Source: a virus
Virus record (IMG/VR): IMGVR_UViG_3300025674_000518
Coordinates: 1-20,108 of that record
Length of the DNA stretch: 20,108 nucleotides
Strand: one strand, 5' to 3'
A program made the translations under genes and the position numbers. Below the pieces are notes generated by a model. The model was not told the DNA's origin and ran no database searches. It saw only the letters and a list, made by a program, of their open reading frames with translations. Positions 2,063 through 19,954 of the stretch are shown piece after piece (the first letter of the stretch is position 1; the number at the start of each line of letters is the position of its first letter).

Positions 2063-3691
2063 ATGTCTGAAATCAGCACCTATGGCGTGACGGTATTCGC
2101 CAATCCGTCACCGGCACAGCCTGAAAATTTGAACCTTCGCGACGCGGATCAGTGGAATGAGATATTCCATACTGAATCGCGTACTGCTGCGGGTGTCCGC
2201 ATCAACACAAAGTCGGTATTGGGATATCCGCCGTTTTGGCGTGGCGTGAATATCCTGTCAGATGACTGTGCGGGACTGCCTTTCGATGTGTACCGTAGGA
2301 ACGGTGACGATCGCGAAGTGGACTGGGAGCATCCGGCTCAACGTCTGCTGAACGATGATGCCTCGCCAGTGATGTCTGCTTACAAATTCCGTCAGACGAT
2401 GGAATCGCACGCTCTGACCTATGGCAACGGGTACGCATACATTGAGCGGGACATGCGGACGTTTGATCCGCTGGCGTTTTGGATTCTTGATCCACAGCAG
2501 ACGGTGATTCGGTACGTCGATGGTGATCTGTGGTACGCGACGACGATTGATGGCCGGCAGCACAAGTACCCTGCACGAGAGATATTCCATATTTCAGGGC
2601 TAACCAGCAACGGAATCGCGGGGTATTCGGCGTTGGATCTGTTCGCGGAGGCACTGGGATTGCCTATCGCGGCACAGCGATTCGGTGGGAAATTCTTCGA
2701 GCAGGGGTCCAATATGAGCGGGATTCTCATGGTCCCGCACGGATTCAAGGAAGAAAAGATCCGAAACACGCTCGCAGCGTGGGATCAGATGGCGACGGGC
2801 ATCAGCAAGGCACATAAAGTCGCATTGCTTCAGGACGGTGTGAAGTGGCAACCGACGACGATCACACCGAATGAGGGTCAATTTATCGAGACACGCGAAT
2901 CCGAGGTGCGGATGACGGCTGCGAACATTCTCGGGCTACCTGCTCACCTGCTCGGAGACAACTCAAAGAGCAGCCACAACAGCCTCGAGCAGGAATCAAT
3001 GAGCTATCTGGATCACAGTCTCGATCCGCGATTGCGAACGTGGGAGGCGGAAGCCAGTCGGAAGCTGTTGGCAGCACAGCAGCGATTCGAGCGTACTCAT
3101 TTCTGCGAGTACAACCGAGAAGCAAAGGTCCGCATGCAGTTCAGCCAGAAGATTGACGGAATCTTCAAGGAGATGAGCATGGGGATTCTGACGGTCAACG
3201 AATCACGTAAGTTGCTGAACATGCCACAGATCGGAGATGATGGCGATCAGCGATTCAGGCCAGCGAACTGGATGAAGCTGGACGAGGAAACGCCAGAACC
3301 AATCGAGATGCCACCAGTGGACGATGACGGCGAAACGGCAAACGAGCCAACGGAAGCAGATGACACGCTCGAGGCGTTTATTCGCGGGGCAGCACAGGCA
3401 GCGATTGACTTTGAATGTCGAAAGATGGTGTCAATCGCGGCGAATGCGAATCAGTTTCTGGATCGCGTGGCAGCGTTTTATGAGAAATGGACACAGACAG
3501 CAGTCTCGACGATTGGCAACGCGAAAGCAGATCAGATCCGAGCGAAACATGCAGCGGACAGCCAGCGTCAGATCATCGAGGTAGCGGGAAGCTGTTCGGC
3601 TGCGAATCTTCAGGACAATGTGCGTGAATTGGTCGCCACATGGGGTAATCGGGCAGAATCACTGTTCAAAGAGCTAAGGGGAACGATATGA
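2063..3691 (+). CDS. Phage portal protein, HK97 family, with C-terminal extension
   Basis: The protein forms the dodecameric ring at the head vertex through which DNA enters and to which the tail is attached. Residues 43-80 (GVRINTKSVLGYPPFWRGVN, then ILS...AGLPFDVYRR) are the characteristic N-terminal signature of HK97-type portals. NGYAYIERD at 122-130, the EIFHISGL strand at 173-180, GFKEEK..NTLAAWDQM at 227-243 and the clip-region EVRMTAANILGLPAHLLGD (281-299) follow in the expected order. The core ends at about residue 405. An acidic linker follows (about 407-435), then roughly 105 helical residues not found in the shortest family members, making 542 residues in total. Its stop overlaps the protease start (ATGA at 3688). 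Confidence 0.93.
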   Translation: MSEISTYGVTVFANPSPAQPENLNLRDADQWNEIFHTESRTAAGVRINTKSVLGYPPFWRGVNILSDDCAGLPFDVYRRNGDDREVDWEHPAQRLLNDDASPVMSAYKFRQTMESHALTYGNGYAYIERDMRTFDPLAFWILDPQQTVIRYVDGDLWYATTIDGRQHKYPAREIFHISGLTSNGIAGYSALDLFAEALGLPIAAQRFGGKFFEQGSNMSGILMVPHGFKEEKIRNTLAAWDQMATGISKAHKVALLQDGVKWQPTTITPNEGQFIETRESEVRMTAANILGLPAHLLGDNSKSSHNSLEQESMSYLDHSLDPRLRTWEAEASRKLLAAQQRFERTHFCEYNREAKVRMQFSQKIDGIFKEMSMGILTVNESRKLLNMPQIGDDGDQRFRPANWMKLDEETPEPIEMPPVDDDGETANEPTEADDTLEAFIRGAAQAAIDFECRKMVSIAANANQFLDRVAAFYEKWTQTAVSTIGNAKADQIRAKHAADSQRQIIEVAGSCSAANLQDNVRELVATWGNRAESLFKELRGTI

Positions 3692-4383
3692 GACCGAAAA
3701 TCACGCTGAAAATGCCACTGAATGACGCGGGAATCGACGCAAATACGGACGATAAGCTGCGGATCAGCTATCTGAAAACAGATGAAACGCTCGATGTGTG
3801 GCTGCATGGGGCAGTCGGTGATGAGTTCACGGAGACGGATTCTGGTTCGATTGGTCGCATTTTGCGTCAGAATAGTCGGATGCCGGTCAATTTCCGGGTC
3901 AATTCGCCCGGTGGATTGGCGTATGACGGGGTTGCGATGTTCAACGCACTTCAGTCTCACGACGGAAAGACCACCGGCATCATCGAGGGCATGGCTGGAT
4001 CTGCTGCATCACTGGCAGTTCTGGGATGTGATGAGGTCCACATGCACGCGGGGGCGGTATTTCATCCGCACTACAGTCTCATTGTGGCATTCGGGCATCA
4101 GGCACAGATTCGCGATGCGTTGGCAGTCCAGGAACAACTGGACAATGATCTGGAGCAGTTGTATTCGTCGGTCAGCGGTCGCACGATTACTCAGGTCAAA
4201 GATGATCTGGAAGGTCCGAACGGTGACGGGACGCGATTCGGGGCACAGTCGGCATTGGACGCTGGTTATGTGTCGCGGATCATCAAGACGACTGGACCGA
4301 AGGCGAGTGCAGACGACGAATTGAAGCGGCGACAGGTCGCGAAAGCAAAGCTGGCAGTGTTGCAGTTGATGCCTCAAAATTAA
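3688..4383 (+). CDS. ClpP-like prohead maturation protease
   Basis: This 231-residue serine protease of the ClpP-like phage head maturation group is expected to cleave the capsid delta domain during prohead maturation. The signatures visible are RVNSPGGLAYDGVAMFNAL at 70-88 (the oxyanion-hole strand), GMAGSAASLA at 101-110 with S105 as probable nucleophile, and GAVFHPHYS at 122-130 with H128 as probable catalytic histidine. A later GDGTRFGAQSALDAGYV segment is where the third residue normally lies. The start ATG at 3688 has a strong AAGGGG ribosome binding site and overlaps the portal stop in ATGA, which suggests coupling. It lies between portal and capsid, the classical position. No separate scaffold gene is seen, consistent with HK97-type assembly in which the capsid delta domain does the scaffolding. 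Confidence 0.9.
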   Translation: MRPKITLKMPLNDAGIDANTDDKLRISYLKTDETLDVWLHGAVGDEFTETDSGSIGRILRQNSRMPVNFRVNSPGGLAYDGVAMFNALQSHDGKTTGIIEGMAGSAASLAVLGCDEVHMHAGAVFHPHYSLIVAFGHQAQIRDALAVQEQLDNDLEQLYSSVSGRTITQVKDDLEGPNGDGTRFGAQSALDAGYVSRIIKTTGPKASADDELKRRQVAKAKLAVLQLMPQN

Positions 4384-4554
4384 ACTAGACACAACTATCT
4401 GATTTGATAGTATTCGTGAGCTGGCCACTGTCGCATAAGACATGCCCGCACACTATCGCCCGACTCCGCATAAGGTGTCAGCGAAATTGGTACCCTCATC
4501 CAATTTACGCTGGCACCTTTTTTCGTGTCAGCAACCTGATAAGGAACTGACACA
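4384..4554 (+). promoter_or_regulatory. Capsid leader with mutually exclusive hairpins
   Basis: This 171-base gap is the longest in the virion operon and it is rich in inverted repeats. Four segments stand out. A is GTGTCAGC (4475-4482), B is GCTGGCAC (4509-4516), C is a second GTGTCAGC (4525-4532) and D is CTGACAC (4547-4553). A:B is the core of a long terminator-like stem. B:C can form an 8-bp hairpin around the T-run, and C:D forms a 7-bp hairpin whose loop carries the AAGGA ribosome binding site (4541-4545) of the capsid gene. A:B and C:D can coexist, while B:C excludes both. A separate small palindrome ACTATC/GATAGT lies at 4394-4411. The pairings are seen directly; regulation is inferred. 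Confidence 0.55.
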
Positions 4555-4558
4555 ATGA
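4442..4558 (+). CDS. Possible 38-residue leader ORF overlapping the capsid start
   Basis: An ATG at 4442 opens a 38-codon frame that runs through the whole terminator and anti-structure region. It stops with the TGA of an ATGA overlap at the capsid start, the same junction style used by several neighbours (for example 3688 and 16188). The peptide is rich in Pro, His, Ser and Lys and resembles nothing I know. No good ribosome binding site precedes it, and a frame of this length can stay open by chance. If translated, ribosomes would melt the terminator arms and deliver translation to the capsid start. It is listed as a low-confidence candidate because of the junction and its position. Confidence 0.22.
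   Translation: MPAHYRPTPHKVSAKLVPSSNLRWHLFSCQQPDKELTQ
4472..4523 (+). terminator. Strong Rho-independent-type terminator before the capsid gene
   Basis: The left arm at 4472-4490 pairs with the right arm at 4500-4519. Nearly 19 bp form, with one G-U pair and one bulged base, around a 9-base loop. The stem runs straight into a T6 tract (4518-4523). This is a very strong hairpin by eye. It sits between the protease stop (4383) and the capsid start (4555). It may lower read-through from the packaging genes, or it may be conditional as part of the leader switch. Confidence 0.7.
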
Positions 4559-5997
4559 GCATCAAAGCACAGCTAGAAAAGCTGTCAAAGGAGCGGAACA
4601 CGCTTCTGGACAAAGCGAAGGAACTGCTGGCATCAGCACAGGACGCCGGTCTGAGCGATGAGCAGGAAGCGGAAGTCGATCAGATGACGGCATCTGCGGA
4701 AGAACTGGACGGACAGATCAAAGAGCTGCTTGAAAAAGAGCAGAAGATGAAGTCCCGTCTCGATGCAATCAATGGATTCGATGACCATTCGGACGCGATC
4801 AATGCGGCTCGAGGGATTCACATCGAAAGCCCGCCTGCTCGGCAGGAAACGTCAAACAGCATCCCGGCACGATGTCGCCGGCATGGCAAGTTGACGAACT
4901 TCACTGGCGATGAAAACGGCATGTCTGCTGAAGAGCGGGCATTCCGATTCGGTCAGTGGGCACTGGCAAAGATCACGATGGATATGCCTGGTCAATTCGG
5001 CGGGCGTTTCCAGTATTCGCGGCAATTTGCACATGACCAGTTCGGCCTGCCGACGATGGTTCATGGCGAAGGCAGCAGCGATACCAGTGGTGCTCACGTA
5101 TTCGTGCCCGATGAATTCGGCACGGACCTGATCAAGCTCCGTGAGATTTACGGGGTGGCTCGTGGCGTGTTCAAGTATCGCACGATGAGCAGCGATACAC
5201 GGACTGATCCGCGTCGAACGGGTGGTCTGACTGCGTATTTCGTTGGCGAAAATGCTGCGGGTACGGAATCAGATGCTGCCTATGATCAGGTGACACTGAC
5301 AGCGAAAAAGCTGATGGCTATCACTCGCATGTCGTCGGAACTGAATGAAGATTCGGTGATCGACTTCGGTAACGAGTTGGCTGGTGAAATCAGCTACGCA
5401 TTCGCCAACAAGGAAGATGAGTGTGCCTTCAACGGTGACGGAACATCGACCTATGGCGGAATCGTTGGTCTGCGGACGCAACTGGACACACTGACAGCGG
5501 GCACTGCTCCCGGTCTGATTCAGGGTGCTGGTGCAACGTGGGCGAGCCTGACGCTTCAGAACTTCGAAGATGCTGTGGGTGCTCTGCCTCAGTATGCGGA
5601 TGTTCCTGGTCAGGTCTACTGGATCTGTCACAAGACGTTTTTCCACAGTGTTATGCACTCGCTGATGAATGCTGCTGGCGGAAACACATCGTCAGAATTG
5701 GCAGCGGGCGGTATCCGTTCGTACCTGGGCTATCCGGTTCGATTCTCGCAGGTGTGGCCATCTGCCACGGCATCCGGTCACATTCCAGTTGTCATTGGCA
5801 ACTATATGCAGGTTGGTTGCTTCGGTGATCGTCGCATGGAAACGATCTCATTCAGTGATCAGGCCACCGTTGGCGGTCAGTCACTCTGGGAACGTGACCA
5901 GATGGCAGTCAAGGGCACTCAGCGGTTCGACATCAACATTCACGACTTCGGCAGCAACACTGTCGCTGGTCCTGTTGTTGGTATCGAAACTCAGTAG
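4555..5997 (+). CDS. Major capsid protein, HK97 fold
   Basis: This 480-residue precursor builds the icosahedral shell. Residues 1-75 are a charged coiled coil (LEKLSKERNTLLDKAKELL and a later EELDGQIKELLEKEQKMKSR) that corresponds to the HK97 delta/scaffold domain, which the upstream protease should remove. The shell fold begins around residue 160-190. VPDEFGTDLIKLREIYGVAR (184-203), GGLTAYFVGENAA (223-235) and the KKLMAITRMSSELNEDS strand are the N-arm, E-loop-like and spine-type segments of the Phage_capsid family. A GYPVRFSQVWP segment and the C-terminal FDINIHDFGS finish the domain. The ATG has AAGGA at 4541-4545, nine bases upstream. The gene is bracketed by a terminator-like hairpin on each side, so its mRNA could be controlled separately from that of its neighbours. 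Confidence 0.93.
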   Translation: MSIKAQLEKLSKERNTLLDKAKELLASAQDAGLSDEQEAEVDQMTASAEELDGQIKELLEKEQKMKSRLDAINGFDDHSDAINAARGIHIESPPARQETSNSIPARCRRHGKLTNFTGDENGMSAEERAFRFGQWALAKITMDMPGQFGGRFQYSRQFAHDQFGLPTMVHGEGSSDTSGAHVFVPDEFGTDLIKLREIYGVARGVFKYRTMSSDTRTDPRRTGGLTAYFVGENAAGTESDAAYDQVTLTAKKLMAITRMSSELNEDSVIDFGNELAGEISYAFANKEDECAFNGDGTSTYGGIVGLRTQLDTLTAGTAPGLIQGAGATWASLTLQNFEDAVGALPQYADVPGQVYWICHKTFFHSVMHSLMNAAGGNTSSELAAGGIRSYLGYPVRFSQVWPSATASGHIPVVIGNYMQVGCFGDRRMETISFSDQATVGGQSLWERDQMAVKGTQRFDINIHDFGSNTVAGPVVGIETQ

Positions 5998-6011: not shown

Positions 6012-6038
6012 AGGCGGGTGCATGGGTGCCCGCCTTTT
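6012..6038 (+). terminator. Terminator-like hairpin after the capsid gene
   Basis: AGGCGGG (6012-6018) pairs with CCCGCCT (6029-6035) around a 10-base loop, and the stem is followed by TTTT. It lies 14 bases after the capsid stop and before the ribosome binding site of the next gene. It could be a partial terminator or a 3' stability element that lets the capsid transcript accumulate above downstream messages. Confidence 0.65.
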
Positions 6039-6484: not shown

Positions 6485-7086
6485 TGGGCGGTGGCTCAAT
6501 CAATTATCATCCTCTGGTGCCGTGGTTGATCGGAAAAGCCAGAAACGTCTACACGCAATTTGGTGAGGACGGATTGATTGAGGCCACATTCGAAACGATT
6601 GGAACAACGAACAGACACTGCTTTGAAATCGGGGCAGCGGATGGGTTGTTTTATTCGAATACGCTACGCCTTCGGGAGTCCGGTTGGATGGCCGTTCTCC
6701 TGGAGGCAGACGCGAATCAGTTCTCGAAGTTGCAACGCGATTACGGTGACACGGCAGTCTGCATCGAAGGCAGGGTGACGGATCTCGACGCGGAACTGGC
6801 AAAGACTGGAATCAGTCAGAATCCCGACTTCGGTGTGATCGACATCGACGGGCAAGACTATTGGATGTGGTTAGATTTGGAGGAGTACCGGCCTCGCGTG
6901 ATGCTGGTTGAGATTTATCCACCTGACAGGAAGCAACCGTTTCCTAAGCGTGGAGCGAATGGAGGTCAGGCAGGACTGGACGCAATCGAGTCGCTAGGCA
7001 TATCGAAGGATTATGTTTTGGTGGCGACGACGTATTGCAACGCTCTGTTTGTCGCAAAAGAGGAATTGATGGATGTCCGTTACTGA
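6484..7086 (+). CDS. FkbM-like SAM-dependent methyltransferase
   Basis: The protein has 200 residues and a class I methyltransferase fold. QFGEDGLIEATFETIG (25-40) leads into the SAM-binding loop CFEIGAADG at 46-54. The acidic end of strand 2 is VLLEAD (71-76). FGVIDIDGQDYWMW (116-129) and RVMLVEIYPP (138-147) complete the core. This combination is typical of the FkbM-like proteins found in sugar and surface-polysaccharide gene clusters, where they O-methylate glycans. The substrate here is unknown. The start overlaps the previous stop by one base and the end overlaps the next gene by 14 bases. With the downstream methyltransferase-glycosyltransferase it forms a cassette between capsid and connector genes, so I infer a role in virion or host glycan modification rather than assembly. 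Confidence 0.78.
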   Translation: MGGGSINYHPLVPWLIGKARNVYTQFGEDGLIEATFETIGTTNRHCFEIGAADGLFYSNTLRLRESGWMAVLLEADANQFSKLQRDYGDTAVCIEGRVTDLDAELAKTGISQNPDFGVIDIDGQDYWMWLDLEEYRPRVMLVEIYPPDRKQPFPKRGANGGQAGLDAIESLGISKDYVLVATTYCNALFVAKEELMDVRY

Positions 7087-8242
7087 GGTTGAACAGTCAC
7101 TGAAGCTGAACATCGGAAGCGGTGAGACAGAGCTGCCGGGATTCACGAACATCGACCGGCGGGACGGGAAAGAAGCGTATCCGCTGGAATACGAGACAGA
7201 CAGCGTTGATGAAATTCGAGCGTCACACATTCTGGAGCATTTCAGCTTTCGTGAAGCGATTAGCGTTCTGGAAGAATGGGTCCGTGTGCTGAAACCGGGC
7301 GGACTGATTCGGATCGCGGTCCCTGATGTGGACAAATGCCTCAAGTCAAATCACAAGAATCGTCTGTTCTATTTGATGGGCGGTCAGACGGATGAGAACG
7401 ACTTCCACAAGTCCGCATGGGATGAGAATCGGCTGCGAAGCTACATGGAACTGGCTGGACTTGGTTCGATTGAATCGTGGGAATCGGACGGACTGGATAC
7501 ATCGGCACATGAGGTATCACTAAATCTGCAAGGTCGCAAGCTGGCAGAAGATGAGGTCACGGAGCAAAAGCATCTGGACGTGAAAATCGGTGCTTATATG
7601 ACGTTGCCACGGTACGAGGCAGTGGCGGCACGTTCCACCATTGAATCAAGTTGTCGGGAACTGGGGATTGGTCTGGCGACATCGCAGGGCGTGTTCTGGG
7701 GGCAGTGCATGCAGCGGATGTTCAACGATGCAATTGAGCAGGGCGTTGAATGGATTCTGAGCATTGATTCCGACTCAATGTTCAACACCGGACACCTTGA
7801 AAAGCTGTTGCAGCAATTCGCACAGACGCCTGAAGCGGATGCAATGGCGGCGTTGCAGTGTAGACGCGGGAAAGGGTTTCCGTTGATGACGATCGAGGGG
7901 CAGACATCGCAAACGATCTCAGACAAAAAACCATTTCGGGTGACAACAGCACACTTCGGACTGACATTGATTCGGGTATCGGCGTTGAAGGAAGTGGCGA
8001 AGCCGTGGTTTTTCAGTCGGCCTGATTCGGATGGTGAATACGGCGATGACAGATTGGATGATGACATCTGGTTCTGGCATCAGTGGAAAGAGGCGGGCAA
8101 AAGTATCTACGTGGCACCAGATGTATCGATCGGCCATCTGGAAGAAACGGTTGCCGTATTTGATGACGATCTGAATCCGCGAATTGAGTACCTGAACGAA
8201 TGGCGGGAAAAGAATCTCAACCGAAGGCAGTACAGTTTCTAG
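7073..8242 (+). CDS. Methyltransferase-glycosyltransferase fusion protein
   Basis: Residues 9-85 are a methyltransferase-type domain: LKLNIGSGETELPGFTNIDR at 10-29, then SVDEIRASHILEHF (44-57), VLKPGGLIRIAVPDVDK (72-88). Residues 168-360 are a GT-A-like glycosyltransferase domain that opens with DVKIGAYMTLPRYEA. WILSIDSDSMF contains a DxD metal/nucleotide-sugar motif (D232, D234). DDDIWFWHQWKEAGKSIYVA (329-348) and a terminal histidine H355 in GHLEE follow, as in family 2-type enzymes. The two activities in one chain suggest transfer of a sugar that is then methylated, or a methyltransferase-like domain that positions the acceptor. The acceptor is unknown. The ATG has an AGAGGAA site and overlaps the previous gene by 14 bases. 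The N-terminal domain is paralogous in style to the methyltransferase at 17432. Confidence 0.8.
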   Translation: MSVTEVEQSLKLNIGSGETELPGFTNIDRRDGKEAYPLEYETDSVDEIRASHILEHFSFREAISVLEEWVRVLKPGGLIRIAVPDVDKCLKSNHKNRLFYLMGGQTDENDFHKSAWDENRLRSYMELAGLGSIESWESDGLDTSAHEVSLNLQGRKLAEDEVTEQKHLDVKIGAYMTLPRYEAVAARSTIESSCRELGIGLATSQGVFWGQCMQRMFNDAIEQGVEWILSIDSDSMFNTGHLEKLLQQFAQTPEADAMAALQCRRGKGFPLMTIEGQTSQTISDKKPFRVTTAHFGLTLIRVSALKEVAKPWFFSRPDSDGEYGDDRLDDDIWFWHQWKEAGKSIYVAPDVSIGHLEETVAVFDDDLNPRIEYLNEWREKNLNRRQYSF

Positions 8243-16191: not shown

Positions 16192-17435
16192 AGCTATGCA
16201 AGTGTGAACATCACAGCGAATGTCCTGCTGCGATCGTCAAGAGTGCGGAAACGATGCACCTATGCCAGACGAATCCGAAACTGCGGGAGGCATTCATGCA
16301 GAACCGCAACAGCACGCGACCGTCACAGCCTGCACACAATGAGCAACCGGGAACGGTACTGGCTCGAAAGATCGCGTGGATCACTGGCTTGAAAGGCACC
16401 GGCAGTTGCGGATGTAAGAATCTGAAAGCACAGATGGACCGCGAAGGATGCGACTGGTGTGAAGCAAGTCGGGAATTGATCGTCAGCAAGATGATGAAGA
16501 ATGCTGCCCAGCTCGTTACGTTCGCGAATATCGGTGAAGCGGTCGTGAATTCAGCGGTCGGGCGTGCAGCGTGCAAGATGGCGGCGAATGCGTTGCTGAC
16601 ATCAGCGATTGAAACAGCGAGAGCGGAAGCGAATCAGAAACGGAAAGCACGACCGCCACGAGAATTGACGCAGCGTGCGAGACGATATCCGCCATTGTCA
16701 CACAGCCCGACGATTCCGAAAGAACCGCTGCCGTTTACCGGGGAGCCGGAACTGACGCTGATGTTCCACGTCTATCCTCGTGGCGAGGGTTGGCGGTCAC
16801 ATCTGGCAAAAATGGAACCGCAACTGCATCGATTCAAGCGGAAGATTCTTGGTGTGGCGTATGATCGCGATACCTATTCCGTGGATGATACGGTGGCAGC
16901 GTTTGGCGATGGATGGGAAGTATTCACAGCGGAAAACGGAGCAAAGGGAAAGCATCAGAAGGGATTGCGTGAGGTTGCCACGTATCAGCAGATGCTGCCA
17001 ACACTGGACACGGGACCGAATGACGTGACGTTCTGTCTGCACGGGAAGGGATCACAGACTGGCTATGACAAGTCAGATCCGATTCAGTGGTGGATTGATG
17101 CGATGTATTCGACGGTGTACCACAACATCGATGGCGTGATTGATGAGATGCGTAACGGTGCGGCGATCGTTGGTAGCTTTCGGAAACACTCGAAGGATCT
17201 CGGCACGCGACACCGCTGGCATTATTCCGGGACGTATTACGCATTCCGGAACGCGATCACATGCAGCAATGGGTGGCCGAACTTCCGCCAGAAATGGTGG
17301 GGAACAGAAAGCTGGCCGGGGGATCATTTCCCGTTATCGGCGTCTGCCTGCATCTTCGGTGATCGGTGCGGCAATTTGTATCACGTAAATGAACAACCAC
17401 GACAACAACTCGAAAAATGGAAGAAACGAACATGA
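16188..17435 (+). CDS. Glycosyltransferase-like protein with cysteine-rich N-terminus
   Basis: 415 residues in two parts. Residues 1-100 carry CKC and C12 at the start, then GSCGCKNLKAQMDREGCDWC (72-91), a spacing that could bind a metal and that recurs in N-terminal parts of phage tail-linked proteins I know. A basic, Pro-rich linker spans about 148-185. Residues 188-392 resemble the sugar-transferase-like family with YCH-K-G type motifs. They hold LMFHVYPRGEGW (191-202), FCLHGKGS (282-289), IQWWIDAMYSTVYHNIDGVI (299-318), WHYSGTYYAFRNA (344-356) and ESWPGDHFP (374-382). The family is tied to polysaccharide synthesis, but the donor and acceptor are unknown. The start overlaps the tail-protein stop in ATGA, so it is made with the tail genes. 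Confidence 0.6.
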   Translation: MKLCKCEHHSECPAAIVKSAETMHLCQTNPKLREAFMQNRNSTRPSQPAHNEQPGTVLARKIAWITGLKGTGSCGCKNLKAQMDREGCDWCEASRELIVSKMMKNAAQLVTFANIGEAVVNSAVGRAACKMAANALLTSAIETARAEANQKRKARPPRELTQRARRYPPLSHSPTIPKEPLPFTGEPELTLMFHVYPRGEGWRSHLAKMEPQLHRFKRKILGVAYDRDTYSVDDTVAAFGDGWEVFTAENGAKGKHQKGLREVATYQQMLPTLDTGPNDVTFCLHGKGSQTGYDKSDPIQWWIDAMYSTVYHNIDGVIDEMRNGAAIVGSFRKHSKDLGTRHRWHYSGTYYAFRNAITCSNGWPNFRQKWWGTESWPGDHFPLSASACIFGDRCGNLYHVNEQPRQQLEKWKKRT

Positions 17436-17953
17436 AGATCGAACTCGGCGGTGGCCCATTCCCTAAAGGCGACGGGTTTCTGAATGTGGATATGGATGAC
17501 TCATGCGACATCCAGCACAATCTCGACGTGTTTCCGTATCCGTTCGATGATGAATCAGTTGAGGCAGTATACAGTAGTCACTGCCTCGAACATCTAAACG
17601 ATCCGATGCCCGTGTTGATCGAGATTGCACGCATCTGCAAAGTCGGGGCATCAGTGGAGATCAGGGTGCCCGCAATGGGGTCGCCTGTGATGTGGACGTT
17701 TCAGCACAAGCACTGTTTCAGTGCATTGATGGCGGTAGATGCTGATGGTGTATTCGCTGATAGATTTTGGCACGGTCCTCGACGGTTGAAGCTGATACGC
17801 TATCACTTGCAGCCGTCGTGGCACATTCACGAATTCAAGCGTGATTGCCCGCGAGTTGCCAATTTGTTTCCAGATGATCAGCAGATAATGAAATGGATAC
17901 CTGCAACAGCACATGAGACAGTCTTTCATTATGAGGTGCAGGCCAATGTTTGA
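17432..17953 (+). CDS. SAM-dependent methyltransferase-like protein (predicted, sugar-cluster type)
   Basis: 173 residues. IELGGGPFPKGDGFLNVDMD (residues 3-22) is the SAM-binding loop and the following acidic strand. FPYPFDDESVEAVYSSHCLE, then HLNDP, and KVGASVEIRVPA follow in the order seen in Methyltransf_11-like proteins from glycan clusters. The same order occurs in the N-terminal domain of the fusion protein at 7073, so the two are probably related. The ATG at 17432 is preferred over 17417 because it gives an ATGA overlap with the upstream stop and begins exactly at the conserved strand. It overlaps the oxygenase gene by 8 bases. The domain is small, and some proteins of this type lack activity, so catalysis is not certain. 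Confidence 0.72.
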   Translation: MKIELGGGPFPKGDGFLNVDMDDSCDIQHNLDVFPYPFDDESVEAVYSSHCLEHLNDPMPVLIEIARICKVGASVEIRVPAMGSPVMWTFQHKHCFSALMAVDADGVFADRFWHGPRRLKLIRYHLQPSWHIHEFKRDCPRVANLFPDDQQIMKWIPATAHETVFHYEVQANV

Positions 17954-18464
17954 ACAATTCCATGACGTACTACCGGACCACATCCGACAGGCAGCTTTGG
18001 CCACGTTCCCGGATGAATCGTGGGAACATTGGCACCGATACGAAAACGGGAAGTTGGCGACGAAAGATCGCAGCAGGTTTCCGCCAGCGTGTCAGATGGC
18101 AATTGACCTGATTGCAATACGCTGCCCGCCTGCGGATGGATTCTATGATCCGGAGTGCGTGGGGGCAGGTTTGCATTTTATGCCGAGCGGCTGCGAATTA
18201 GGCGAACATCAGGACGCAGCATTTGCGGGTCATCGGGAATGGAGACGTACGGGGAGTCTGGTATACTTCTTAGAGGGTTGTGTCGGCGGTGAATTGATCG
18301 TGGCAGGTGATGTGATTGAACCAGTGGCGAATATGGCGGTGATGTTTTCAGGCAGTCAGTTGCACAGTGTCAACAAAACGCATTCGCCACGTCGTACATT
18401 GAGCCTGTTCAGTTACGTTGAATCGGCAGCAGAGAAAACAACGACAAGAGCACAATTCACCTGA
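17946..18464 (+). CDS. 2-oxoglutarate/Fe(II)-dependent oxygenase
   Basis: 172 residues with a double-stranded beta-helix pattern. LGEHQDAAF supplies the iron-binding HxD (H88, D90). GSLVYFLEG and GGELIVAGDVIEP (114-126) are core strands. FSGSQLHSVNKTHSPRRTLS (134-153) supplies the distal histidine H140 and an arginine (R149/R150) about ten residues later that would bind 2-oxoglutarate. These enzymes hydroxylate proteins, sugars or nucleic acids. Start 17946 has GAGGTG (17933-17938) seven bases upstream; an earlier in-frame ATG at 17913 lacks this. It is the last gene of the second modification cassette. The substrate is unknown; glycan or virion-protein hydroxylation is inferred from context, and phage DNA or host-protein targets remain possible. 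Confidence 0.8.
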   Translation: MFEQFHDVLPDHIRQAALATFPDESWEHWHRYENGKLATKDRSRFPPACQMAIDLIAIRCPPADGFYDPECVGAGLHFMPSGCELGEHQDAAFAGHREWRRTGSLVYFLEGCVGGELIVAGDVIEPVANMAVMFSGSQLHSVNKTHSPRRTLSLFSYVESAAEKTTTRAQFT

Positions 18465-18935: not shown

Positions 18936-18965
18936 TTGACATTCGCGTGCGGTTTCGCCAATACT
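18936..18965 (+). promoter_or_regulatory. Predicted sigma70-type promoter for the ParB-like gene
   Basis: A perfect TTGACA -35 box (18936-18941) is followed after 18 bases by AATACT (18960-18965), a 4-of-6 match to the -10 consensus. It comes 10 bases after the terminator T-run and reads toward the gene at 19082. That would give a leader of about 110 bases. Confidence 0.6.
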
Positions 18966-19014
18966 GTCCGCGTTGGGACTGCTGCACAATAAGTCTCACA
19001 GTTGAACAACCTCC

Positions 19015-19066
19015 AGCCCCTGACAATGACGCGAAGTGCAGCTCGCTGATTTGCCAGGGGTTTTTT
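19015..19066 (+). terminator. Terminator-like hairpin in the leader of the ParB-like gene
   Basis: CCCCTGACA (19017-19025) pairs with TGCCAGGGG (19052-19060) with one mismatch. The stem is extended by A-U/G-U pairs and followed by TTTTTT (19061-19066). A nested GCGA/TCGC stem lies in the loop. It stands between the promoter and the ribosome binding site GGAG (19070-19073), so it could act as an attenuator rather than an end-of-gene terminator. Confidence 0.55.
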
Positions 19067-19081
19067 CGTGGAGAAAACATT

Positions 19082-19954
19082 GTGAACATGGAAGCAATTA
19101 GCGTACTGCCAATGTCTGTTGATCAGTGGATTTTAGTTCCTGACAATCCACGGCAGCGAGACACAGAGTCACATGCGAAATCAGCAGTGAAAAAGCATCT
19201 TTCGGAATTAAGCCCGGTGCATCGCGTGGTTCACGCAGCGACGATTGATGGTGAGACACCGGCATGCAAGCTGGATGGTCACACGAGGGCGTGGCTGTGG
19301 AAAGTCGACAAGCTGGAGCGTCCAAAGTCAAACACGATGATGGTAATGCTTTACAAGGTAAACGATCTCCGTGAAGCCGGTGAATTGTATACTCATTTTG
19401 ATAATTCGCAGGCAGCGGAAACATCATCAGATAAGTTTTTTGGTGGATGCCGTGAGCAAAACATCCGACTTGAATCAGCTCTACTGAATCGGCTTCAGAT
19501 CAGTAACGCATTGAAATTTGCCACGTCCAAGTGGGGCGGACATAATTTCAGCCATTACGAACTGATCAGTATTTGGAAAAATGAACTGCTTGAGTTGGAT
19601 AGCTGGAACATTTCAAAAGGGAAGCTCAGTAACGCACTGATAAGCGTGGCGTTGCTTTGTATTCATGACAAGCGATATGAGACGAGCATCGTGCGTGAGT
19701 TTTTCCATAACTTCGTGACTGATGCCGGGGTGAAGGAAGGCAAACTTAGGGATGGGGTGCAGGCATTGTCAGAACTGGTTGAACGTAAGAAAAACCAAAG
19801 CTCGCCTAATGGGTGGAAGAATATAACCGACTTGGCAGAACGGGCACTCACCTGCGTCAATATGTATGTTCAAGGTAAAAGGATTAGAAGTGTCCGGCGA
19901 ACGTCTATTGAACCGCTACGGGTTGCAAAAATGGAGTCAATCAACAATGAATGA
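19082..19954 (+). CDS. ParB/sulfiredoxin-like DGHTR domain protein
   Basis: 290 residues if started at the GTG 19082, which has GGAG at 19070-19073 eight bases upstream; ATG 19088 is the alternative. A frame extension back to 18947 starts before the promoter -10 and is rejected. The N-terminal half carries ACKLDGHTRAWLW, with the DGHTR motif in the position of the G-x-HR motif of ParB-like N-terminal domains, after a region containing WILVPDNPRQRD. GELYTHFDNSQAAETSSDKF follows, a stretch I associate with phage and plasmid proteins of this kind. The C-terminal half is helical and unrecognised. Its role is unknown; possibilities are nucleotide- or DNA-dependent regulation of replication or a nuclease-like activity. 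It has its own promoter and terminator-like leader, so it belongs to another transcription unit. Confidence 0.6.
   Translation: MNMEAISVLPMSVDQWILVPDNPRQRDTESHAKSAVKKHLSELSPVHRVVHAATIDGETPACKLDGHTRAWLWKVDKLERPKSNTMMVMLYKVNDLREAGELYTHFDNSQAAETSSDKFFGGCREQNIRLESALLNRLQISNALKFATSKWGGHNFSHYELISIWKNELLELDSWNISKGKLSNALISVALLCIHDKRYETSIVREFFHNFVTDAGVKEGKLRDGVQALSELVERKKNQSSPNGWKNITDLAERALTCVNMYVQGKRIRSVRRTSIEPLRVAKMESINNE

Follow-up and report, generated by a model that had tools for sequence, protein, structure and literature searches.

A putative attenuator-like RNA switch in the leader of the major capsid gene in an uncultured group of tailed phages

Is the production of the major capsid protein in uncultured HK97-type phages gated by a switch in the RNA that precedes the gene? 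The question is raised by the DNA between the head maturation protease and major capsid genes of a 20,108-base IMG/VR record, here called the window, which represents an HK97-type phage with terminase, portal, protease, capsid, and tail genes. In phages without a late polymerase or a late sigma factor, the delay and scaling of this most abundant protein is mostly explained by promoters and antiterminators. The original prediction, made from the letters of the window, placed four segments (A, B, C, and D) in front of the capsid gene as a chain of competing pairs, with A:B forming a terminator stem, C:D closing over the capsid ribosome binding site, and B:C excluding both. Judging from comparative sequence analysis, the conserved four-segment arrangement very probably serves as a genuine control switch, in a form undescribed for such genes. 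If real, it would represent an extra layer of control over the most abundant protein of these phages. The group is distant from cultured phages: among the matches listed, the nearest cultured capsids share only ~23-28% identity with the window capsid, and no match to the intergenic DNA of the window, or to that of the relative L092, was detected in phage records.

Segments, folds, and transcript of the capsid leader

The gap between the protease and capsid genes spans 171 nt, and the putative switch occupies its 3' half (Table 1). Direct inspection of the sequence, folding, and repeat finding bore out the four segments and their three pairings where they had been proposed. In the window, A and C form an exact direct repeat, while A/D and C/D form perfect 7-bp inverted repeats. 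The minimum free energy (MFE) fold of positions 4384-4600 reached -81.2 kcal/mol (z = -7.1), a value matched by 0 of 200 shuffled sequences. Present in this fold is the proposed terminator stem of ~19 bp running into T6: the two arms of A:B pair over 19 bp with one bulged A and a 9-nt loop. A simple terminator scan missed this hairpin because its loop limit was 8 nt. The same fold contains C:D as a 7-bp hairpin around AAGGAA whose base lies one nucleotide before the ATG, in agreement with the proposal that this helix encloses the ribosome binding site and ends beside the start codon. The tail score of the U-tract was -5.2 in the window and ranged from -3.8 to -5.9 in relatives.

When A was masked, the MFE fold of the window became an 8-bp B:C hairpin around the T-run with D open, as expected of a helix claimed to exclude both A:B and C:D. 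Within the window alone, B:C was better than ~99.5% of pairings with shuffled C, and C:D was better than 99.8% of its shuffles. Folding of growing prefixes indicated that A:B forms once B leaves the polymerase and that C:D forms later. The combination of A:B and C:D was far more stable than B:C, which upholds the further claim that A must be blocked for B:C to win.

Table 1. Coordinates of features in the window and of pre-capsid terminators in other phages.
Feature	Locus	Position	Strand	Remarks
Head maturation protease gene	Window	3688-4383	+	phrog_94, E 2e-31; stop codon 4381-4383; upstream neighbor
Sigma70-type promoter, TAGACA, 16 nt, TAGTAT	Window	4386-4413	+	9/12 consensus matches; predicted transcription start ~4420
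5' leader part P	Window	4420-4471	+	no conserved pairing to A, B, or C (duplex test versus shuffles)
5' arm of terminator hairpin	Window	4472-4490	+	holds segment A, GTGTCAGC, 4475-4482; sequence, fold, repeats
A:B hairpin loop	Window	4491-4499	+	TACCCTCAT; MFE fold
3' arm of terminator hairpin	Window	4500-4519	+	holds segment B, GCTGGCAC, 4509-4516; sequence, fold
U-tract T6	Window	4518-4523	+	tail of A:B terminator, loop of B:C hairpin; sequence
Segment C, GTGTCAGC	Window	4525-4532	+	partner of B or of D; sequence, repeats, duplex test
Shine-Dalgarno AAGGAA	Window	4541-4546	+	within C:D hairpin
Segment D, CTGACAC	Window	4547-4553	+	partner of C; ends one base 5' of the ATG at 4555
Major capsid protein gene, HK97 type	Window	4555-5997	+	phrog_10, E 4e-49
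Intrinsic terminator directly 3' of capsid gene	Window	6012-6035	+	predicted end of capsid transcript
Plain-terminator site	L268	1142-1164		
Gap with plain terminator	L267	1122-1170		
Gap with plain terminator	L272	1152-1224		
Gap with plain terminator	L273	951-1035		

A promoter dedicated to the capsid gene is new to this analysis and was absent from the original prediction. It adjoins the protease stop codon ~150 nt 5' of the capsid ATG, and in many relatives that stop codon is itself the TGA of the -35 element. The motif TTGACA followed after 16-19 nt by a -10 element with at least 3 of 6 matches was present at 35 of 46 loci, compared to 4% of random windows. When scored by position, the only enriched interval was -175 to -140 (p<0.05 in 17 of 19 clades, Fisher 7e-17), with the window itself at p=0.066. 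No promoter enrichment was observed at -90 to -55 or at -55 to -20, and a promoter inside the hairpin, which would give transcripts without A, was therefore rejected. With the promoter beside the protease stop codon, the switch would lie in the leader of a transcript dedicated to the capsid gene. In the window, this mRNA probably starts ~135 nt 5' of the ATG, includes A, and ends at the terminator at 6012-6035, to which similar hairpins were found in L018, L034, L061, L090, and L095. On the minus strand of the window, weak sigma70-like matches at 4531-4502 and 4481-4452, a potential source of RNA antisense to the switch, were at chance level.

Conservation and covariation of the helices among relatives

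Relatives were fetched from IMG/VR by capsid homology searches and yielded 47 distinct regions upstream of homologous capsid genes in ~20 sequence clades, which are related to one another and were bordered by a simple identity cut; capsid start codons were hand-picked from the Shine-Dalgarno sequence and homology. Despite differing letters, a common plan was observed within a protease-capsid gap of usually ~140-240 nt, in which a long hairpin and a U-tract are followed, usually after CGTT or GCGTT, by a hairpin holding the ribosome binding site. The A:B hairpin, the U-tract, and the hairpin over the ribosome binding site were found at the same place in nearly all relatives. In most relatives A:B is an imperfect hairpin of roughly 16-30 bp, and the sequence of its apical part is not conserved between clades. 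Because the pattern used to find the U-tract required at least three T, T at positions 1-3 is by construction; in several relatives the tract is short (3-4 U, then GCG), and termination there may be weak.

A covariance model of the element gave essentially a single hit per locus, located at the capsid start, barring self-complementary matches on the minus strand; the window's own copy scored below the model threshold, and its assignment rests on position and folding. No such element was seen by eye in the upstream DNA of the outer relatives L045/L047, L051, L052, L054, and L242. A search for prophage relatives with A1 returned none in the genome collection, and with A4 it returned four outer relatives in metagenome-assembled genomes of Acidobacteriota, Coriobacteriia, and Hyphomicrobiales. 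In L241, L242, and L243 no such element was apparent in the DNA upstream of candidate starts, and L244 had no start candidate.

To compare pairings without an alignment, five segments (P, A, B, C, and D) were matched all-against-all in a duplex test of ten possible pairings across 24 regions. Only three pairings exceeded shuffled sequences: A:B in 24 of 24 regions, B:C in 23 of 24, and C:D in 13 of 22. Combined by Fisher's method these gave p = 6e-30, 3e-22, and 3e-11, respectively, values that are only indicative because the clades are related and the combined p-values overstate independence. No signal above shuffles was obtained for A:D, B:D, or any pairing of P. The case for a switch turns on B:C, as a terminator and a subsequent hairpin covering a ribosome binding site could both exist without this helix. 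Against shuffled C, 17 of 19 clades had a B:C pairing at p<=0.05; in 18 of 19, the clade's own C paired better than foreign Cs did on average. Furthermore, B, U-tract, and C folded alone into a hairpin with the U-tract in or beside the loop in all clades. B:C is kept by different letters in nearly all of the 19 clades, and C:D in most. Examples include GCTGGCAC with GTGTCAGC in the window, GTCGGAGCC with GGTTCCGAC in L004, GCCGGC..TCAGCG with CGTTGA..GCCGGC in L014, GCCAG.GGTTGACGC with GCGTTGACT.CTGGC in L034, and GCCGGTGAC with GTCACCGGC in L106.

Covariation was counted on a 15-row alignment built from sequence alone; a model-based alignment (A5) was left out of the pair counts because it had been fitted to the structure. 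RNAalifold detected no structure on a 35-row MAFFT alignment, since sequence alone does not allow the deep clades to be aligned, and the 15-row alignment and alignment-free tests replaced it. Double changes were observed at 10 of 14 pairs in A:B and 4 of 8 in C:D, with 91% of cells paired compared to 30-43% with slid partners. For B:C the corresponding values were 4 of 14 pairs and 90% compared to 28-46%. G-U pairs were more frequent in B:C than in the other two helices, which we read as fitting a weaker state able to form only if A is unavailable. Since C matches both B and D, and B matches both A and C, the helices constrain each other and free covariation in B:C is limited. The original prediction held that B:C and C:D should be conserved and covary in related phages, and the comparison came out for the switch. 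With compensatory changes in its helices and a fixed genomic context, the arrangement has the properties of a conserved cis-acting RNA element of a new family, and the covariation makes each helix directly testable.

The effect of A on the start region was estimated with partition-function calculations in which the first 14 nt of A were masked. Across 24 leaders, the mean cost of opening the Shine-Dalgarno sequence and ATG fell from 10.0 to 5.9 kcal/mol (Wilcoxon p 2e-5), while it stayed at 9.6 kcal/mol when the upstream RNA (P) was masked instead. Opening of the ribosome binding site was cheapened in most clades; in L014, L056, L057, and L065 the start region was not opened in the calculation. 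In L014, L048, L056, L057, and L065 the C:D helix is missing or substituted by a 5' segment. In L018/L038, L048, and L056/L057/L059/L065 the start region pairs instead, or also, with a segment 5' of A, enclosing A:B, and the start region may thus stay hidden in a different manner in these clades. The calculations suggest that both transcription and translation can be gated by the element, with off as the default.

Proposed mechanism and alternative explanations

The explanation we favor, with a probability of roughly 0.6, holds that the ~140-nt leader of the capsid mRNA contains a cis-acting RNA attenuator, in which occupation of A by a trigger would give rise to B:C as the on state. By default, A would pair with B once B is made, and the hairpin and U-tract would act as an intrinsic terminator. 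Polymerases that pass the terminator would make C and D, and C:D would bury the ribosome binding site. If A were occupied, B would pair with C, the terminator would be broken, the U-tract would lie in a loop, and D would be free; transcription would go on and the translation start would be open. We infer that the trigger is a late phage factor, either protein or RNA, acting on A, and a promoter read by the host enzyme would in that case give no shell protein too early. It is an even bet that the element amounts to a new class of cis-regulatory RNA, found only before the major capsid gene in a large uncultured group of tailed phages, in which termination and start masking are coupled through one shared segment, a yet undiscovered phage or host signal acts on A, and shell production is timed to follow a promoter that has long been active. 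A switch of this kind would give a defined RNA with which to find the trigger, as well as a compact element for controlling transcription and translation jointly.

Candidate triggers were sought within the leader and the window. Pairing of P with A, suggested by GATTGA/TCAATC in some clades, was above shuffles in 0 of 24 regions and was rejected. A trans-acting RNA complementary to A within the window was likewise rejected, as nothing beyond the level of shuffled A was found. A lineage-specific fold or binding site in P is possible. An extra lineage-specific hairpin, GTCAGGA...TCCTGAC or a near form, was observed between the promoter and A in L034, L206, L211, L212, L218, L220, L223, and L226.

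The best-surviving alternative, although improbable, is that the elements are static, with the A:B terminator ending or damping upstream transcripts, C:D lowering capsid translation, and B:C a functionless by-product. This is consistent with the far greater stability of A:B plus C:D and with the plain intrinsic terminators that immediately precede the capsid gene of distant cultured phages, N15-like and other HK97-type, namely phiKO2 (NC_005857; annotated as putative), Yersinia P840, Marinobacter AS1, and Komagataeibacter phiKM1. These phages share with the window an intrinsic terminator between the protease and capsid genes, but theirs is a short GC-rich tetraloop hairpin, with a B:C partner in 0 of 4 and C:D lacking in 3 of 4; in phiKM1 the ribosome binding site is possibly covered by a hairpin. 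The absence of B:C from these phages argues against a by-product, as does its retention with other letters in nearly every region tested, better than that of C:D, when the non-selected pairs A:D, B:D, and those of P carry no such signal. The presence of a plain terminator without B:C in distant cultured phages suggests that the pre-capsid terminator either predates the switch or has arisen repeatedly, and the switch appears to elaborate on it in this uncultured group.

It is less probable still that RNase III cuts A:B, releasing A and leaving the remaining B to pair with C and open the ribosome binding site. Processing-dependent translation is known from lambda N and T7 early mRNAs, a precedent for such a route, and the imperfect A:B hairpin of most relatives is of a size that suits the enzyme. 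However, B:C covers both halves of B (GCCAG and the 3' half), which a cut in the duplex would sever, and the U-tract would be left unexplained. Autogenous control, in which the capsid or another phage protein binds A:B and locks the off state when shell protein suffices, with B:C as the on state, appears slightly less probable again. It would involve the same RNA anatomy as the attenuator, and the capsid gene lies directly behind the element, which the covariance model finds essentially only there; yet the unconserved apical part of A:B leaves no common protein site visible, and an off state that is the default needs no repressor. Leader-peptide attenuation as in trp, erm, and cat, with a ribosome on a short open reading frame covering A, is very improbable and already largely refuted: in the window a 38-codon frame does run from an ATG at 4442 to 4558, spanning the whole hairpin with its TGA overlapping the capsid ATG, but it has no Shine-Dalgarno sequence by the energy cut used and is not conserved, no leader frame with its own Shine-Dalgarno sequence is conserved in relatives, and frames between the promoter and A vary among close relatives.

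Known systems and other features of the window

The original prediction knew of no described attenuator of this form for HK97-type capsid genes, and that statement holds for the sources searched. With Rfam 15, nothing in window positions 4300-4700 came near the gathering score and six relatives had no match; no capsid attenuator of such a kind was found in the open-access literature. The capsid element works like an attenuator of the ermC or trp type but is not filed as a member of either, because the leader peptide that defines them was tested for and is absent.

In ermC-type attenuators, four segments form a chain of the pairings 1:2, 2:3, and 3:4. The capsid element shares this scheme, with either 1:2 and 3:4 or 2:3 formed and the ribosome binding site closed only in the first state, although not in every clade. 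Unlike ermC, it has no leader peptide or stalled ribosome, its first hairpin ends in a U-tract, and the gene encodes a phage capsid rather than resistance. The lambda cIII leader differs from the capsid element, we presume, in having no terminator, in serving a regulatory gene, and in the lack of homology. What they share is a phage mRNA able to adopt two folds, with translation blocked in one of them, and the cIII leader is described as temperature-dependent (PMC8346122). Also common to ermC-type attenuators and the capsid element is a default fold that hides the ribosome binding site of the main gene and an alternative that exposes this site once the leader's first part is occupied (PMC5418344, PMC5118997). 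Both erm types, the translational ermC and the transcriptional ermK, are described in PMC5418344. With attenuators of the trp/ermK type (ermK: PMC5418344) the capsid element shares an intrinsic terminator opposed by an antiterminator that uses one terminator arm; at sequence level, the two are mutually exclusive and lie in an mRNA leader with its own promoter. Unlike that type, the capsid terminator is formed by the first two segments and not the last two, the antiterminator partner C lies 3' of the U-tract and also controls the ribosome binding site, and no leader peptide senses an inducer.

A second promoter-leader unit was noted at window positions 18936-19091. Here, TTGACA-18-AATACT precedes a hairpin formed by CCCCTG and CAGGGG, with TTTTTTCG, as well as a CUCC segment able to pair with GGAG, the ribosome binding site of the following gene (phrog_2615, function unknown). 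In clades with a 5' anti-Shine-Dalgarno segment, the capsid leader has a similar layout; the fold at 18936-19091 shows no gain in stability over shuffled sequences (z -0.25), and the layout may be due to chance. Elsewhere in the window, sugar- or methyl-modifying genes lie within the structural operon: a single frame (7073-8242) matches a methyltransferase and, weakly, glycosyltransferase 2, while 17417-17953 encodes a second methyltransferase and 17913-18464 a 2OG-Fe(II) oxygenase.
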